Shown here piece after piece: positions 1 to 7,622 of a DNA stretch of 7,622 bases (the stretch's first letter is position 1; each line of letters begins with the position of its first letter). The stretch is taken from the NCBI GenBank assembly GCA_030635865.1, contig DAOVYA010000065.1, positions 1 to 7,622 of the forward strand, in the 5' to 3' direction. The position numbers were made by a program, and so were the translations under genes. This stretch comes from Gammaproteobacteria bacterium. GTDB taxonomy: Bacteria; Pseudomonadota; Gammaproteobacteria; UBA9214. Below the pieces are notes generated by a model. The model had not been told where the DNA came from. It did not search any database and worked only from the letters and a program-made list of their open reading frames with translations.

Positions 1-54
1 AGCTGGCAGCGGACTCGACGAGATTGCCGCGACACTTTGTTCCTCGCAAAGACG
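1..54 (+). repeat. Palindromic intergenic repeat, copy A (cut by window start)
   Basis: This is the right-hand part of the element seen complete at 119-205. Position 1 aligns with position 152, and the two copies then match with few substitutions up to the GCAAAGACG end. The right inner arm GAGATTGCCGCG lies at 20-31; its partner arm would lie upstream of the window. The 151-bp offset to copy B, with a shared G-rich tail after each copy, indicates a tandem arrangement. Repeats of the type GTCATTGCGAGCGAAGCG...GCAATCTC are known as dispersed intergenic palindromes in many bacterial genomes; their function is not established. Confidence 0.85.
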
Positions 55-118
55 GGGGGATGTTTATCCGTGTCACAGCGCCTCCAACCTCAGCTCCGTC
101 ATTGCGACTTCCATCCCT

Positions 119-205
119 CGTCATTGCGAGCGAAGCGCGGCAATCTCGTAAAGCTGGCAGCGGACTCGATGAGATTGCCGCGTCACTGCGTTCCTCGCAA
201 AGACG
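119..205 (+). repeat. Palindromic intergenic repeat, copy B (complete)
   Basis: An 87-bp imperfect palindrome opening with CGTCATTGCGAGCGAAGCG and closing with TTCCTCGCAAAGACG. The inner stem is perfect over 12 bp: CGCGGCAATCTC at 136-147 pairs with GAGATTGCCGCG at 171-182, leaving a 23-nt loop. The outer arms also pair, but the right arm is a few bases longer, giving an internal bulge. An extra half-site, CCGTCATTGCGA, lies just before it at about 96-107. The element is non-coding; the open frames crossing it on both strands are a by-product of the repeat. As RNA it would fold into a long hairpin upstream of gspA. Confidence 0.9.
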
Positions 206-462
206 GGGGGGGTGTTTGTCCGCGTCACTGTATTCCTCAGGAAGCGCATCCGCGATCTGCTCTGCCAGGCGCTGCTCATGGACCAGTTCCGATGCCCCGG
301 CGGCCGTGGCACTGGAAATTCAGTCGCAACATGCCGGAAAGAAAGGATATTATAGTGTTTCAAGCGTATGGTATCGGGTCTGGTTCAAGGGCAGGCCCTG
401 GCACCGTAAGCACAGGAAAGTCCTGGCCAGGTGGTATCAGGGCCAGAACAAACTGACAGGAC
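206..462. other. Spacer upstream of gspA, no convincing gene
   Basis: The first part (206-240) is a G-rich tail and a degenerate copy of the repeat's right arm (CGCGTCACTGTATTCCTC at 221-238). The remainder has no reading frame that looks like a protein on the plus strand. On the minus strand a frame stays open from 319 to the window start, and its first part reads ASELVHEQRLAEQIADALP. That is protein-like and could be the remnant of an exported protein's N-terminus, but it lacks a start codon and runs straight into the repeat. A TATTATA block at 348-354 gives -10-like hexamers on both strands. Confidence 0.6.
348..353 (+). promoter_or_regulatory. Possible -10 element for gspAB
   Basis: TATTAT at 348-353 matches the sigma-70 -10 consensus at five of six positions. 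No good -35 is visible at 16-18 bp spacing (the best is TCGCAA, three of six). It would give a leader of roughly 100 nt before gspA. The same block read on the minus strand is a perfect TATAAT (349-354), so the direction is uncertain. Confidence 0.25.
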
Positions 463-2181
463 ATGTATTTAAAACATTTTAATCTGACCGAACGGCCGTT
501 CTCGATTACGCCGGATCCGCGTTTTTTATATATGAGTGCGCGTCATAAGGAGGCGCTTGCACACCTGCTCTTTGGCCTGGGTGAAGGTGGAGGGTTTGTG
601 CAGTTGACCGGTGAAGTAGGAACCGGCAAGACAACCATCTGCCGCTGTTTGCTGGAGCAGGTGCCGGAGAATGTTGATCTTGCCGTGGTATTGAACCCCA
701 AGGTGACCGCAATCGAACTGATTGCCACGGTATGTGACGAACTGGGCATTGCCTATCCGCAAGAATTCACCATCAAGACATTAATCGACGTACTTAACGA
801 ATACCTGCTGGAAGCATACACACGTGGACGACGCACGGTGCTTATTATTGACGAGGCACAGAATCTGAGTGCGGATGTACTTGAACAGGTACGTTTGCTG
901 ACAAACCTGGAGACATCGACACAGAAGCTGTTGCAAATCGTTCTGATCGGGCAACCGGAATTGCGCAGCCTGCTGGAAAGCGAAGGGATGCGACAGTTAT
1001 CCCAGCGAATAACCGCACGTTATCACCTTGACCCCATTACCCGGGAAGAGGCGGAGGCCTATATAAAACACCGGCTGCAGATCTGCGGGAGTTCCAGGAA
1101 CATATTTTCACGCCGCGCGGTTAACAGGATTCAAAAATTGTCAGGTGGTATCCCCCGGTTGATCAATGTTCTGTGTGATCGCGCCATGCTGGGTGCATAC
1201 GTCGAAGGCAAGACGCAGGTTGACTTGAAAGTACTGAAGAAAGCAGCCAGGGAAGTAATCAACGAGACACAACCTCCCGGTGGCAACAACCGGATGCCAT
1301 GGCTGTTGGGTGTTTTATCTGTATTGGCGTTGGTCGCGCTGTTTGTTTATCAACCTTTTCACTCTACCGATACCCGGGTTGTTGAACCTGTTGCACAGGT
1401 CAGGGGGGACCCCGCGGCTACGCCGGTTGATGCACCGGAGACCGGGTTTGTTGAACCCGTGTCCGGGCCTGAAACAGTGCTGGAACGCGAACCAGGGCCA
1501 CTGAATGACATTGAGAAAGTGTCTGTTACCCCCGGGACTGACGACGATGTAGCCGGAGCGCTGGCCACGCTGTTAATGGGGGCTGATGATTCCTATGAAA
1601 TATTGGCCTGGCGCGAACTGCTTGCGCTCTGGTCGGTTGAACTGCCCGCGGATGCCAATCCCGATACCTGCGAGTTTGCAAAACAATACGGCCTGTTGTG
1701 TATGCACGAGCAGGGTAACTGGAACACGCTGCGTCAACTCGATCGCCCGGTCATCCTGAAGCTGGTTGCCGCTGATGGTCGCCGCATCCCGGTGGTGCTG
1801 CAGCATATTGATAACATGTCTGCAGAGCTGATTATCGGGGCTGACCTGTACTGGCTGGAAGTCGGGCTGGTGGACCGTTTCTGGTACGGCGGCTATTCCC
1901 TGTTGCTGCAGACGCCGCCGGGCGGGAGCCTGTTTCTCAGGGCGGGTATCCAGGCCGAGGATGTTCGGTGGCTGCGTAAACAGCTCGAGGTGGCCCAGGG
2001 TGTCGAGATACCTGCCACTAACCCCCTGCTATTCGATCAGGTCCTGAAAGAACATTTGCTGGATTTCCAGCGGAGCCGCGGACTGGTAGCCGACGGCGTG
2101 ATGGGAAGAAACACGATTATTCATCTCAATTCGCAATCCAGCCCGGCGGGCATTCCCCGCCTGTCAGCGGTGCAGTCCTGA
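463..2181 (+). CDS. gspA: GspA/ExeA-type AAA+ ATPase of type II secretion
   Basis: A 572-residue inner-membrane ATPase which, with GspB, allows the type II secretin to pass and assemble through peptidoglycan. The N-terminus (MYLKHFNLTERPFSITPDP) is the classic ExeA family opening and fixes the start. Walker A is GEVGTGKT at 50-57, Walker B LIIDE at 127-131. A GQPEL segment (163-167), the arginine-bearing SQRITARYHL (180-189) and the sensor-2-like GIPRLIN (229-235) complete the AAA+ module. One membrane segment spans about 279-297, followed by a Pro/Glu/Val-rich periplasmic linker (about 300-360), a mixed domain (about 363-487) and a C-terminal peptidoglycan-binding domain (about 497-556; LLDFQRSRGLVADGVMG). 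The binding domain separates it from the shorter PEP-CTERM/exosortase-associated ATPases of the same superfamily. The AGGA before the ATG is only one base away, so ribosome binding looks poor. gspB follows after 4 bp. Confidence 0.93.
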   Translation: MYLKHFNLTERPFSITPDPRFLYMSARHKEALAHLLFGLGEGGGFVQLTGEVGTGKTTICRCLLEQVPENVDLAVVLNPKVTAIELIATVCDELGIAYPQEFTIKTLIDVLNEYLLEAYTRGRRTVLIIDEAQNLSADVLEQVRLLTNLETSTQKLLQIVLIGQPELRSLLESEGMRQLSQRITARYHLDPITREEAEAYIKHRLQICGSSRNIFSRRAVNRIQKLSGGIPRLINVLCDRAMLGAYVEGKTQVDLKVLKKAAREVINETQPPGGNNRMPWLLGVLSVLALVALFVYQPFHSTDTRVVEPVAQVRGDPAATPVDAPETGFVEPVSGPETVLEREPGPLNDIEKVSVTPGTDDDVAGALATLLMGADDSYEILAWRELLALWSVELPADANPDTCEFAKQYGLLCMHEQGNWNTLRQLDRPVILKLVAADGRRIPVVLQHIDNMSAELIIGADLYWLEVGLVDRFWYGGYSLLLQTPPGGSLFLRAGIQAEDVRWLRKQLEVAQGVEIPATNPLLFDQVLKEHLLDFQRSRGLVADGVMGRNTIIHLNSQSSPAGIPRLSAVQS

Positions 2182-2185
2182 GCTT

Positions 2186-2926
2186 ATGTCATATATTCTT
2201 GATGCACTGAGAAAGGCAGACCAGGAACGCAGCATCGGTGATGTGCCTGACCTGGATACACCGCACTGGAGCAGGCGGCGTGGTGGCCATATCCGGTACT
2301 GGGTATGGGGGGGCATCGGTTTGTTAATTGTTAATGCTGCGTTATTTGCGGTCCTGTTCAACCGTGACGACAGCGCTGATGGCCGGCCCGAGATATCCGG
2401 TAACGTGCCGGAACAGACGCAGAGCAAGTCTCCTGCCCCGCCGACAGAGTTTCAACACGGGACCATCACGAAGCCACAGCAGTCGGAAAACCTGCCGCTC
2501 AAGCCACTGGCACGGCCGGAGCGCAACGTGATAACAAAGCCGCGGCAACCGGTGCCCAGGATGGTTGGGCGCCCGGCAGTAGTTGAAGCTCCCAGGGTGG
2601 CAGCGCCTGCTGCCGACAGTGTGACACCAGTAGATGTGACCACGGCACCGGCAGCTGAAAAACCACGGGCGCCCGTTCCTGTTCAGACCGGCGAGCCGGA
2701 AATCCCGGAATGGAGTGAGCTGTCATTGGAATTCAGGAGTGGATTTAATCCGCCGCGACTGGATGTGCATGTCTATTCTGATGAACCATCACGCCGTTTT
2801 ATCCTGGTTGACCTGAAGCGGTTTGCTGAAGGTGATACCCTGGACAGCGGGGCAAAGCTGGAAAAGATCCTGCCGGAAAGTATCCAGTTGTATTACCAGG
2901 GGACCCGGTTCCGGTATGACAGATAG
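2186..2926 (+). CDS. gspB: GspB-type secretin assembly partner
   Basis: A 246-residue bitopic inner-membrane protein, partner of GspA. It opens with MSYILDALRKADQER, the signature N-terminus of GspB proteins. A single membrane segment lies at about 38-58, after a basic stretch RRRGG. A long Pro/Ala-rich periplasmic linker (about 60-175) leads to the conserved C-terminal GspB domain (about 178-246), recognised from RLDVHVYSDEPSRRFILV and a final YYQGTRFRYDR. It starts 4 bp after the gspA stop codon with no clear Shine-Dalgarno sequence, so translation is probably coupled to gspA. The other gsp genes are not in the window; a separate exeAB locus is common. The stop codon lies 7 bp from that of the convergent isomerase gene, leaving no space for a terminator. 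Confidence 0.92.
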   Translation: MSYILDALRKADQERSIGDVPDLDTPHWSRRRGGHIRYWVWGGIGLLIVNAALFAVLFNRDDSADGRPEISGNVPEQTQSKSPAPPTEFQHGTITKPQQSENLPLKPLARPERNVITKPRQPVPRMVGRPAVVEAPRVAAPAADSVTPVDVTTAPAAEKPRAPVPVQTGEPEIPEWSELSLEFRSGFNPPRLDVHVYSDEPSRRFILVDLKRFAEGDTLDSGAKLEKILPESIQLYYQGTRFRYDR

Positions 2927-3944: not shown

Positions 3945-4397
3945 ATGATAACAACCATTCAGATCTTGCTGAAGAGATGTACCTATGTCCCGGAGGATAA
4001 CAAGGCGGGGCGCGAGGAGGCCTTGCGTACGGCCGTTGCTGTTTTGTTAATGGAAGTGGCGCGTTCGGAAGATGGTATCTCGAATGAAGAGCGCCGGGCA
4101 ATACACCGTGTTATCGAAGCGCAGCATTCCATTTCACCCGACCAGGCACGTGCAGTTGCCGCTGCGGCAGAGCGGGATGCTGAACAGGCTACCTCATTGC
4201 ACCCATTTACCCGACTGATTGTCGATGAATGCAGTCTCGAGGAGAGAGCAGAGGTTATCAGGATGTTATGGGAAGTTACTTTTGCTGATGGTAATGCGGG
4301 TGCGCATGAACAACATCTGGTCAGGAAGGTTGCCGGTCTTCTTCATGTACCCCATAGTGACTTCATTCGAATGAAGTTGCAGCACGGCAGTTCTTGA
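3945..4397 (+). CDS. TerB-like (TerB/DjlA-N fold) protein
   Basis: A 150-residue, mostly helical protein with two related halves typical of the TerB family found in proteobacteria. The first half has an acidic loop SEDGISNEE (41-49) after RTAVAVLLMEVAR; the second has ADGNAGAHEQHLVRKVAGLL (114-133), followed by the characteristic end HVPHSDFIRMKLQ. The acidic loops may bind metal, as proposed for TerB. Such stand-alone proteins are often labelled tellurite resistance, but no ter operon is present here and that role should not be assumed. There is no signal peptide or membrane segment. The ATG at 3945 has no Shine-Dalgarno sequence, and no other in-frame start fits better. The gene begins 36 bp after the palindromic repeat. 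Confidence 0.82.
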   Translation: MITTIQILLKRCTYVPEDNKAGREEALRTAVAVLLMEVARSEDGISNEERRAIHRVIEAQHSISPDQARAVAAAAERDAEQATSLHPFTRLIVDECSLEERAEVIRMLWEVTFADGNAGAHEQHLVRKVAGLLHVPHSDFIRMKLQHGSS

Positions 4398-4666: not shown

Positions 4667-5020
4667 TCAGACCATTTCTTTCAGGCCCTTAAGTGCAAGA
4701 ACCTTGACTACATTACGTGCAGGTTTTGCCTTGAACATCATTTCTTCGCCTGTAAACGGATTAACTCCCTTGCGTGCCTTGGTAGCTGGCTTGCGCACGA
4801 CCTTGACTTTCATCAGTCCTGGAACAGTGTAAACACCCGGGCCCCTTTTCAGGTCACGCTTGATAAGAGTGGCGAGTGAATCGAAAACCGAACCGACTTC
4901 TTTCTTGGCCAAGCCGGTTTTGTCGGCAATATAGGTGAGTGATTCTGACTTGGTTGTTGGTTTCTTTGCAGCCTTTGCGGTTGTCTTCTTTTTCGCCTTC
5001 GCTTTTTTCTTTGCAGCCAT
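4667..5020 (-). CDS. HU-family DNA-binding protein with lysine-rich N-terminal tail
   Basis: A 117-residue histone-like nucleoid protein. Residues 1-25 are strongly basic (11 Lys, with Ala and Thr: KKKAKAKKKTTAKAAKK), resembling the tails of eukaryotic histone H1 and of extended HU proteins such as those of Deinococcus. Residues about 26-117 form a divergent HU/IHF domain: helices to about 60, then beta-strands YTVPGLMKVKVVRKPATKARKGVNPFTGEE. The NPFTGE motif holds the proline that intercalates DNA in HU/IHF. The start is the ATG at 5018-5020, preceded by GAGGAG with 9-nt spacing. An upstream in-frame ATG (5074) would add 18 unrelated residues and lies inside the promoter. It has its own promoter and terminator, so it is a single-gene unit. 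It is longer than classical HU (about 90 residues) because of the tail. Confidence 0.9.
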   Translation of the reverse strand: MAAKKKAKAKKKTTAKAAKKPTTKSESLTYIADKTGLAKKEVGSVFDSLATLIKRDLKRGPGVYTVPGLMKVKVVRKPATKARKGVNPFTGEEMMFKAKPARNVVKVLALKGLKEMV

Positions 5021-5029
5021 TCGATAAAG

Positions 5030-5035
5030 CTCCTC
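5030..5035 (-). promoter_or_regulatory. Strong ribosome binding site of the HU-like gene
   Basis: Minus-strand GAGGAG lies 9 bases before the ATG at 5020 and fixes that start over the longer in-frame ATG at 5074. It is the strongest Shine-Dalgarno site in the window, which fits an abundant nucleoid protein. Confidence 0.85.
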
Positions 5036-5064
5036 TATAAGTATTTGGATGAAACAGCACGCGT

Positions 5065-5100
5065 AAGATAGCACATTAAAATAAATGTTAAAGTTTTTTT
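5065..5100 (-). promoter_or_regulatory. Predicted promoter of the HU-like gene
   Basis: On the minus strand: -35 TTAACA (5086-5091, five of six), 15-bp spacer, and an extended -10 TGCTATCTT (hexamer 5065-5070). A run of seven A directly upstream (5094-5100) could act as an UP element. The spacer contains ACATT and AATGT arms separated by 6 bp (5073-5088), a possible small operator. The start of transcription would be near 5058, giving a leader of about 38 nt. Confidence 0.55.
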
Positions 5101-5662
5101 GAATGCAGGAAATGCCTTCTATAGTAGTATTTCATGAACCTCTGTCAGCGCCCTCCGTTGCCCGGTTGATGCCCTGCTGACGAGCACCGGGGTGCATGTG
5201 CCGGGGTTGCCTTCCTGCGGTCGCGGCAGATGCATGTGCTCGCGGCCCTTGTGGTGGTACCTGCGTGGCCGGCTGCCGCAGGAGCCGCACGGTGCCGGGC
5301 GCCAGCCCCTTCACGCAGAGGCGGCAGCGGTATCCTTTTGGTGCACGCAAGACAACCCCTTGATAATCTTGTTATTTATGATTCGATATCGGATGCCCCA
5401 GGCTGTTTCTTGCAGCTTGGCCCGTTGCCTCCTGACCCTGAAGTCGGGCCTGTTTGTGATGTTTTGACCGGTTTCAGTACTACAAGGCCGCTTTGCAGCC
5501 TTGCCCTGAGCGGCTTGCTACAGGCATCACATATCCGCCTGATTATGAATTCAATTTTAGACTTCACCAGCCGATAAATCAGGAGCGAGGGGGTGTGCCC
5601 ACACGGGGCACTATTGTCCACTCGAAAATATCAAGCATCAACAGCCTGGGAACTGTATTGAA
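5101..5662. other. Long spacer without a convincing gene
   Basis: About 560 bp between the HU promoter and the cNMP/rhodanese gene. Open frames exist on both strands (for example 5230-5577 plus and 5132-5350 minus), but they lack ribosome binding sites, have no recognisable motifs and have compositions expected of out-of-frame GC-rich DNA. No tRNA or rRNA is visible. Near the downstream gene there is a small palindrome GTGTG-CC-CACAC (5593-5604) and a weak promoter-like pair TTCAAT...GATAAA (17-bp spacing, roughly 5550-5578). The region could be regulatory or hold a decayed gene. Confidence 0.5.
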
Positions 5663-7622
5663 ATGATTGCAGCAAAGAAGATCGTGGACATGAAGATTCT
5701 GCGGGGGCTTGTGCCGCTGAATACGCTGTCCCAGGTGCGTTTTGAAGAGATATCGAAAAAAATCATAATTGAAGAGGTCCGGGCGGGTAAATACCTGTTT
5801 CGTATTGGTGACCGCGATAACCAGACTGTATATCTGCTGGGTGGGGAAGTTAACCTGCTTGATGGCAAGCGTAAGTTTTCCGCCGTGATCAAGGCCGACT
5901 CTAACAAGAGCCATTACCCGATAGCCGCTGCACAGCCGCGTGCCTTGTCAGCACGAGCGGTGAAGAAATGCGTGGTCGCCCGTATTGATTCCAGCCTGCT
6001 GGAGGCATTCCTGTCCTGGGACCAGTCAAACAACACAGAGGCGGTTGCTATTGACGCTGATGAGAATGAAGACTGGATGACGCGCATGCTTCAATCCCGG
6101 GCATTCGAAAAGATACCGCCTGCAAAAATCCAGCAACTGTTACTGAAGATGGATACCATTCAGCTCAAGGCTGATGATACTGTCATCAAACAAGGTGATG
6201 CCGGGGACTATTTCTACACCATCAAGAGCGGCAAATGCGCCGTAACCTACAAGGATACGCCGCAAGCTGATGACCAGCTGCTGGCCGAACTCTCCGAAGG
6301 CGACAGTTTTGGCGAAGATGCACTGGTCTCTGATATAAAACGCAATGCCACGGTATCCATGCTGACCGATGGGGAGTTAATGCGCCTGGCCAAGCAGGAT
6401 TTCATTGACCTCCTGCAAAAACCATTGATTCGTTATGTCGATTTTGAAAAAGCCGCGGTAATGGTTGATGAAGGGGCCGTATGGATAGATGTCAGAACCG
6501 CTGATGAATATGACAACGGTGTCCTTGAGGATAGTGTAAATATCCCGCTTTCCTCGCTACGCGCGAAGATGCCTGAGCTGGTATTAAATCATCTTTATAT
6601 TATCTGCTGTGATACCGGTGTGCATAGTGCCTCTGCGGCATTTACCCTGAGTCACAAGGGGTTTGACGTGTATGTTCTGCAGGGCGGATTAGAGGCCGCA
6701 CCGGACAGTTCACCGGCAGATCCGGAAATTGCAGCCGGGATTGGCGGGTTCGAACAACAGATCACTGCACTGAATGACCAGAAGCAGCAGCTGGAATCCG
6801 GGCTGGCCGGGGCGCATGAACAGCAAGCATCACTTGAACAGCAAATGGCCGAGCTGAAGAAACTTCATGAGCAGGACAAGCAGCAACATGCGAGGGATGC
6901 TGAAGAACATGAGCGTTCAGCGGCAGCATTGGAGGATGAAGCCAGGCAGCTGGAAGTCAGCAGCGGCAAACAGGAGGAAAAGCGTGACAAGCTGTTGGCT
7001 GACAAGCAGGCAGCAGCTGAGGCGCTGGACAGGCAAATGCAGGAATGGGACAGGGAGCGGGCCCTGTTCATAGCAGGGAATGAAGAGACACAGCAGCGTA
7101 TTGCAGGGCTCCAGGAGCAGCTTGAGCAGGCCGGCGAGAGGAACAGCCGGGACAAGTCCATGGTTCTGGGAGACCTGGAAGCCGTACAGAAAGAGCGTGA
7201 CAGTTTGCAGCAGGAGATTGATACGTTAAATGCACAGCTTGCAACTGTGGCCGGCAGTGCTGATGAACAAATAGAGGACCTACAGGCGCAGTTGGAAGCC
7301 GGGCAACTGCAGTTTGAAAAAGAGCGTGACAGTTTGCAGCAGGAACTGGGATCGGCAGTGGATGCTGCTGCAGGCAAGCAGCAGAAGATTGATGCGTTAG
7401 ACGCACAGATTGCAAGTGTGACCGGCAGTGCTGATGAGCACACGCAGGTCCTGCAGGCCCAGTTGGAAACCGGGCGCCAGCAGCTTGAAGAGCTGGAGCG
7501 GCAAGCAGCCGACAGGCTGGCGCAGTTAAATAATATGCAAGATGAAATGGCCTCGATGAAGATAGCTGAATCCAGGCTTGAACAGGAAGCGGTGCTGCTT
7601 CATGAGCAAAAGGAAAAACTCC
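5663..7622 (+). CDS. Cyclic nucleotide-binding / rhodanese / coiled-coil protein (3' end outside window)
   Basis: Open for 653 codons with no stop before the window end. Residues about 14-130 form a degenerate cNMP-binding-like domain: the fold is suggested by KYLFRIGDRDNQTVYLLGGEV, but no GE...R phosphate cassette is present. Residues about 148-250 are a second cNMP domain with an intact cassette, FGEDAL (Glu218) and RNATV (Arg227), so it could bind cAMP or cGMP. Residues about 258-345 are a rhodanese domain: WIDVRTADEY, then the loop CDTGVHS with catalytic-type Cys316, preceded by Cys315. From about 355 onward it is Gln/Glu/Lys/Ala-rich coiled coil. No signal peptide or membrane segment is seen, so it is probably cytoplasmic. 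The ATG at 5663 is preferred because no other standard start codon lies between it and the upstream stop (TAG at 5558); ATG 5690 is the alternative. GGGAA ten bases before is a weak ribosome site. cNMP-rhodanese proteins are known in gammaproteobacteria; the long coil is unusual. Confidence 0.88.
   Translation, partial: MIAAKKIVDMKILRGLVPLNTLSQVRFEEISKKIIIEEVRAGKYLFRIGDRDNQTVYLLGGEVNLLDGKRKFSAVIKADSNKSHYPIAAAQPRALSARAVKKCVVARIDSSLLEAFLSWDQSNNTEAVAIDADENEDWMTRMLQSRAFEKIPPAKIQQLLLKMDTIQLKADDTVIKQGDAGDYFYTIKSGKCAVTYKDTPQADDQLLAELSEGDSFGEDALVSDIKRNATVSMLTDGELMRLAKQDFIDLLQKPLIRYVDFEKAAVMVDEGAVWIDVRTADEYDNGVLEDSVNIPLSSLRAKMPELVLNHLYIICCDTGVHSASAAFTLSHKGFDVYVLQGGLEAAPDSSPADPEIAAGIGGFEQQITALNDQKQQLESGLAGAHEQQASLEQQMAELKKLHEQDKQQHARDAEEHERSAAALEDEARQLEVSSGKQEEKRDKLLADKQAAAEALDRQMQEWDRERALFIAGNEETQQRIAGLQEQLEQAGERNSRDKSMVLGDLEAVQKERDSLQQEIDTLNAQLATVAGSADEQIEDLQAQLEAGQLQFEKERDSLQQELGSAVDAAAGKQQKIDALDAQIASVTGSADEHTQVLQAQLETGRQQLEELERQAADRLAQLNNMQDEMASMKIAESRLEQEAVLLHEQKEKL
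7190..7480 (+). repeat. Internal duplication in the coiled-coil coding region
   Basis: A 26-nt segment beginning AAAGAGCGTGACAG is identical at 7190-7215 and 7319-7344, a 129-nt (43-codon) offset. A second matching block, starting ATTGAT at 7217 and 7388 (171-nt offset), encodes IDTLNAQLATVAGSADE and IDALDAQIASVTGSADE. The second unit therefore carries a 42-nt (14-codon) in-frame addition, all offsets keeping the reading frame. Confidence 0.85.

Follow-up and report, generated by a model that had tools for sequence, protein, structure and literature searches.

The closest characterised protein to the one described here is probably CbpA (PA4704) of Pseudomonas aeruginosa. Endoh and Engel reportedly found in 2009 that CbpA has two cAMP-binding domains, of which the N-terminal one is degenerate and the C-terminal one intact, and likened it to the regulatory subunits of PKA; it is reportedly a small soluble protein without a rod, a membrane helix or a SUMF1-like domain. 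Excerpts of three papers variously describe CbpA as a receptor, an effector or a binding protein for cAMP (PMC7247823, PMC3019171, PMC11139211), and two of these place it at the cell poles (PMC7247823, PMC3019171). The excerpt of PMC3019171 gives its function as unknown, whereas an excerpt of another paper, against the other three sources, classes PA4704/cbpA as nucleoid-associated and DNA-binding (PMC6147739). A review names CRP as the only cAMP effector in most bacteria (PMC7247823).

Here we describe a widespread, uncharacterised giant protein that is predicted to be membrane-anchored and to combine a PKA-like head and a possible sulfane-sulfur sensor with a predicted exported domain. Its full architecture, well supported by sequence in intact relatives, is a degenerate cyclic-nucleotide-binding (cNMP) domain, an intact cNMP domain, a rhodanese domain, a rod, a membrane helix and a SUMF1-like domain. 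The domains are known ones; among the matches listed by a search of the open literature, with subscription papers mostly outside its scope, none deals with this order of domains. Nor did the searches reveal a characterised protein built in this way, of which the earlier note, naming the gene its best candidate for an undescribed function, had said that many would speak against it. The function proposed below is hypothetical. The window, i.e. the whole stretch of 7,622 nucleotides that was analysed, is an entire contig (C95) of a genome that is 82.8% complete, is spread over 325 contigs and has 6.3% contamination. Its features are as follows.

463..2181, + strand: GspA/ExeA-like gene, an upstream synteny anchor (cluster in 15 of 19 loci)
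2186..2926, + strand: GspB-like gene (T2SSB), an upstream synteny anchor (cluster in 15 of 19 loci)
3945..4397, + strand: TerB-domain gene, an upstream synteny anchor (cluster in 16 of 19 loci)
4667..5074, - strand: HU/IHF-like gene between the TerB gene and the giant gene (cluster in 14 of 19 loci)
5663..7622, + strand: giant gene, 5' part, 653 codons; the frame (5663-7621) is still open where the contig ends
5672..6028, + strand: first cyclic-nucleotide-binding fold, degenerate (residues 4-122)
6074..6421, + strand: second cyclic-nucleotide-binding domain, intact (residues 138-253)
6308..6355, + strand: phosphate-binding cassette FGEDALVSDIKRNATV (residues 216-231, with Glu218, Arg227 and Asn228)
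6431..6712, + strand: rhodanese domain (residues 257-350)
6608..6610, + strand: Cys316 in the rhodanese active-site loop (CDTGVHS in the window, mostly CDTGRRS in relatives)
6713..7621, + strand: predicted coiled-coil rod, initial portion (residues 351-653, heptad contrast z 6.2)
7207..7489, + strand: two 112-nt direct repeats in the rod (copies 7207-7318 and 7378-7489)

The frame starts with an ATG at 5663, an alternative in-frame ATG being possible at 5690, and no clear ribosome-binding site was seen by eye in 5541-5663. The earlier note had read the head as a degenerate and an intact cNMP domain (Glu218, Arg227) followed by a rhodanese domain with Cys316, and Pfam and structure matches as well as the residues conserved in relatives bore this out. 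In the first cNMP fold the phosphate-binding stretch has no Glu, as judged by eye, and Arg93 is retained; Q-P-R is invariant among 46 aligned rows. In the second domain, Glu218 is found in 118, Arg227 in 116 and Asn228 in 117 of 119 long heads (the best 120 of the 312 proteins of the search described below, minus P0141, which has no cNMP domain). The corresponding counts among the 94 proteins of 380-560 aa, which are those among 120 matches listed and may include some cut long ones, are 94, 93 and 94. We infer that this domain binds cAMP. PKA has an Ala and PKG a Thr at the position of Asn228, and the nucleotide could therefore differ from cAMP. The rhodanese loop of the window head matches the CxxGxxS type with an active-site Cys, Cys316 is conserved in 118/119 long heads and in 93/94 of the 380-560 aa proteins, and the best structural matches of the domain include persulfide reductases; Cys316 may carry a persulfide. 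Class III cyclase domains occur in 22 of the 23 genomes of the family, with three in the source genome, and no match to class I adenylate cyclase (PF01295) was obtained in any of the 23.

Like the regulatory subunits of PKA, and like PKG, the head has tandem cNMP folds, and PKA subunits were the best PDB matches found for it by Foldseek; unlike them, it has no kinase, and a rhodanese domain follows the cNMP folds. Superposition is good for single head domains only, that of the whole head on PKA being loose (TMq 0.26-0.32 and rmsd 11-19 A in 50 listed rows). With the first cNMP fold starting near residue 4, there is no room for the N-terminal docking/dimerisation domain of PKA. A regulator of the CRP/FNR type was also considered and rejected, since the cNMP domains are followed by rhodanese and Pfam detected no HTH (E<=0.001).

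The earlier note had further described about 300 residues of coiled coil in a frame open at the window end, which agrees with the heptad contrast given above. The 3' end of the giant gene is very likely on contig C142 of the same genome. The first stretch of this contig is rod sequence that shares 89% identity with window 7256-7552, and the frame continues through the rod into a hydrophobic helix and a PF03781 domain (FGE-sulfatase, 2e-54) up to a stop at 2358. Window and C142 together are colinear with four intact relatives (P0121-P0124), with 15-89 residues between the two parts; on P0121 the window part corresponds to 4-749 and the C142 part to 838-1673. Given the repetitive rod, the gap is of uncertain size, and the 112-nt repeats are the likely cause of the assembly break. 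That the two contigs are unrelated, or that C142 comes from another strain, so that the gene of the window ends differently in the source organism, is very improbable. The contigs share no exact overlap, the 89% identical stretch could be one place in two strains, and the genome is partly contaminated; against this, both contigs are colinear with the intact relatives, conserved genes flank both outer sides, and the only strong tail match of the source genome sits on C142. A short protein stopping soon past the window was rejected for the relatives, which have intact frames, and is unlikely in the source genome given C142. An early stop or frameshift, or a coiled coil missing in related strains, had been named in the earlier note as evidence that would speak against its reading: no early stop was found in the relatives, among which 13 frames are intact, and the rod is present in the intact ones.

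The rod was measurable in 113 of the 120 listed long homologues, with lengths of 513-1157 residues and a median of 942, and its heptad periodicity reached z 6.0-16.4 in all 20 tested. As one continuous two-stranded coil it would be predicted to span about 76-172 nm. The approximately twofold variation in length among relatives fits a spacer better than a ruler, and a molecular ruler of fixed length is thus disfavoured.

Of the 120 listed long homologues, 118 have a hydrophobic helix 309-384 residues ahead of their C-terminus and two show none; more than one hydrophobic peak was seen in 36 of the 120, and C142 has two, which overlap. A surplus of Lys/Arg is found on the rod side of the helix in 110 of the 118 and equal numbers in seven, and the predicted topology therefore has the head inside and the SUMF1-like domain outside the cytoplasm. 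The earlier note had suggested a scaffold, cytoskeletal or polar-localisation protein. The very long rod of that reading held up. Since relatives extend into the membrane helix and a PvdO/SUMF1-like domain, a membrane-anchored rod is likelier than a free cytoskeletal one.

The tail aligned with PvdO (PDB 5hha) with an E-value of 1.9e-41 over 227 residues. It resembles PvdO and FGE in its PF03781 match, and two of its four near-invariant Cys (present in 119, 120, 120 and 120 of 120 listed tails) align with Cys of PvdO. It differs from them in being joined to a membrane helix and a rod and in an extra CxxC which, in the alignment, is not in PvdO; unlike for PvdO, no pyoverdine cluster is found among the immediate neighbours of the giant gene (GspA, GspB, HspQ, TerB, HU, PfkB, Rieske and epimerase). 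The catalytic Cys pair of FGE corresponds to Cys336/Cys341 of the human enzyme. No Cys was found in that stretch of the tail when aligned to SUMF1, and the pair is absent from the 120 listed tails, whose last 240 residues hold only Cys of four other columns. Activity as a formylglycine-generating enzyme was therefore rejected, and the tail is probably not such an enzyme. Structure prediction of the tail was poor (mean pLDDT 55 over 14 rows), and the assignment of its fold thus comes from alignment.

Thirteen intact relatives from the same family, of 1378-1792 aa, carry the head and tail matches on one frame. They represent 13 of the 19 long-head loci of the family, the other six leaving their contig within the rod. 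Among the 23 genomes of the family, 20 have a closely matching head whose frame is long or cut by a contig end, 21 have a strong match to the tail (E-value at most 1.5e-89), and all 23 have head, tail or both. A protein search with an intact relative as query gave 312 proteins, and the best 120 of them contain rhodanese and the FGE domain (PF03781) in 120/120 and cNMP in 119/120 cases, in a sample that is biased by its tail-bearing query and by the listing of the best 120. In a class sample of 369 genomes, the head was detected in 168 (E<=1e-40) and a strong tail in 105 (E<=1e-60); rows compared by eye placed both on one open frame in at least 28 genomes from 17 families. Many of the other listed heads of this sample are compact (~350-390 aa), as the earlier note had stated for gammaproteobacterial cNMP-rhodanese proteins, and others lie on frames of 400-1300 aa. 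The window head shares with this compact head family the order of one degenerate and one intact cNMP domain before rhodanese. In a phylum sample, the head was found in 21 of 398 genomes, five of them outside the class and all five compact (355-381 aa). A plasmid search gave 251 records with partial matches and none covering 80% of the head, and a contig search for named relatives gave a single weak match.

Three long proteins (L109, L110 and L112) have the head and rod without the SUMF1-like domain. The rhodanese Cys is lost in L109 (1658-6748) and L110 (1771-6387) and is kept in L112, which indicates that neither the tail nor the Cys is needed in every lineage. In a tree of 77 heads, the window head falls together with family members in a supported group of 19 rows; change counts by length label were left out, because short flanks truncate the loci L085-L100 and make their labels wrong, as are those of a few frames cut by contig ends. 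Head-plus-tail proteins of other families are found in separate supported groups (L134, L138 and L139 versus L130, L136 and L137) and thus do not form one group, suggesting that the architecture is old and often lost, or was assembled repeatedly.

Both ends of the protein recur in other contexts. Three family genomes contain frames of 935-936 aa that appear to be SulP fusions (L064:360-3164, L065:5648-8455 and L066:4630-7437), and that of L066 was resolved by Pfam into SulP sulfate permease, STAS, cNMP and rhodanese. These fusions have the same cNMP-rhodanese cassette (FGEEAL..RNATV and the Cys loop) but carry it on a sulfate permease and, in L066, with one cNMP domain by Pfam; there the cassette would regulate sulfate transport. 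The C-terminal SUMF1-like domain matched by tail alignment A2 is found in PP2C phosphatase-SUMF1-like proteins, two of which, of 633 and 639 aa, were examined by Pfam (L104:4895-6811 and L117:4560-6458); they carry a phosphatase where the giant protein has its cNMP-rhodanese head, and they are far too short for such a rod. Many other frames of 600-750 aa among the tail matches resemble them in length. Together with the compact heads, the two fusions indicate that head and tail are exchangeable parts, and their recurrence elsewhere fits parts that sense a ligand or a state.

The genes upstream of the giant gene in the window (GspA, GspB, HspQ, TerB and HU) stand in the same order as in relatives, and those downstream on C142 (PfkB, Rieske, DUF6763 and ribulose-phosphate epimerase) in the same order as behind intact relatives. 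PfkB and/or Rieske genes lie behind the giant gene, on its strand, at 13/13 family loci and at 14/24 loci of other families, a count that includes L124 (100-nt overlap), excludes L123 and is based on little downstream sequence at L131, L137 and L124. Among the tail-less long head-rod proteins, PfkB and Rieske are found behind L109 and Rieske behind L112. Of four loci outside the family with wide upstream flanks, L113 and L114 have GspA/GspB and L115 and L116 do not, and 20 further loci had upstream sequence too short to be scored; the use of these neighbours as evidence for a role in secretion was set aside. The neighbouring genes are largely housekeeping genes and point to no single pathway. 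At window 5475-5508, a stretch of 29-32 bases is a small dispersed repeat, with four further copies (91-97%) spread over three other contigs of the genome. The frames in window 1-450, ahead of the GspA gene, have internally repeated peptides and look like non-coding dispersed repeats.

We propose that the protein is a tether spanning the inner membrane, whose cytoplasmic head would respond to sulfur as well as to cyclic nucleotides and sits on a long rod, the far end of the molecule being outside the cytoplasm, and we consider the chances of this to be about even. Class III cyclases would make the cAMP bound by the second cNMP domain, Cys316 would hold a persulfide, the cAMP and persulfide states might change a partner of the head or its dimerisation, and the SUMF1-like domain would fix the molecule to an envelope ligand. 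Tentatively, and at clearly less than even chances, this may represent a new class of second-messenger tether, in which an envelope-bound SUMF1-like domain is tied to a PKA-like switch for cAMP and persulfide up to 170 nm away, and in which the choice of what is retained at one site of the inner membrane depends on cAMP and sulfane sulfur. The signal might run inward instead, in a transmembrane receptor whose SUMF1-like domain binds an envelope ligand and whose helix and rod set the nucleotide affinity or sulfur transfer of the head. Tails of this kind are also carried by PP2C phosphatase modules of other Gammaproteobacteria, as would be expected if the domain has a sensing role, but a precise conformational signal would be transmitted poorly through a rod that is hundreds of residues long and varies twofold in length, and no ligand is known; we regard this reading as unlikely, though of some weight, and favour the tether over it because of the very long rod and its variation in length.

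A distinctly unlikely explanation is that the protein is a sulfur enzyme, with a rhodanese domain whose transfer of sulfane sulfur is controlled by cyclic nucleotides and a rod that serves only to position this domain at the membrane. The near-invariance of Cys316 in long heads, the presence of the same cassette on SulP and the persulfide reductases among the structural matches of the rhodanese domain are in its favour; such chemistry needs neither a rod nor a SUMF1-like tail, and the Cys is lost from the two long relatives mentioned above. The length and regularity of the rod, and the existence of tail-less rod-bearing head proteins, would also suit a filament- or hub-forming cytoskeletal protein with bundling rods and the helix only as an anchor. 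This is quite improbable, since helix (118/120) and PF03781 (120/120) are nearly always kept in the best 120 of 312 proteins found with the tail-bearing query. If read correctly, the tether would provide a localised, post-translational output of cAMP and a direct link from sulfur state to the envelope, as well as a testable context for CbpA as a polar cAMP-binding protein.

Other head proteins of 814-1289 aa, with tails rich in Glu, Gln, Lys, Arg, Ala and Leu, were seen at L107, L108 and L118; they stand as divergent neighbours at L107 and L108, and no Pfam domain was found behind rhodanese in the four examined from these loci. Ten of the loci fetched hold another form of the protein, which has the same head and is shorter, at 462-568 aa. 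This head-plus-coil form adjoins SPFH (Band_7) genes at L057, L058, L059 and L063, NfeD genes at L057, L058, L059, L061 and L062, and DnaJ-TerB genes at seven loci, these being neighbour clusters of which one member each was examined by Pfam; a TerB gene is also near the long form.
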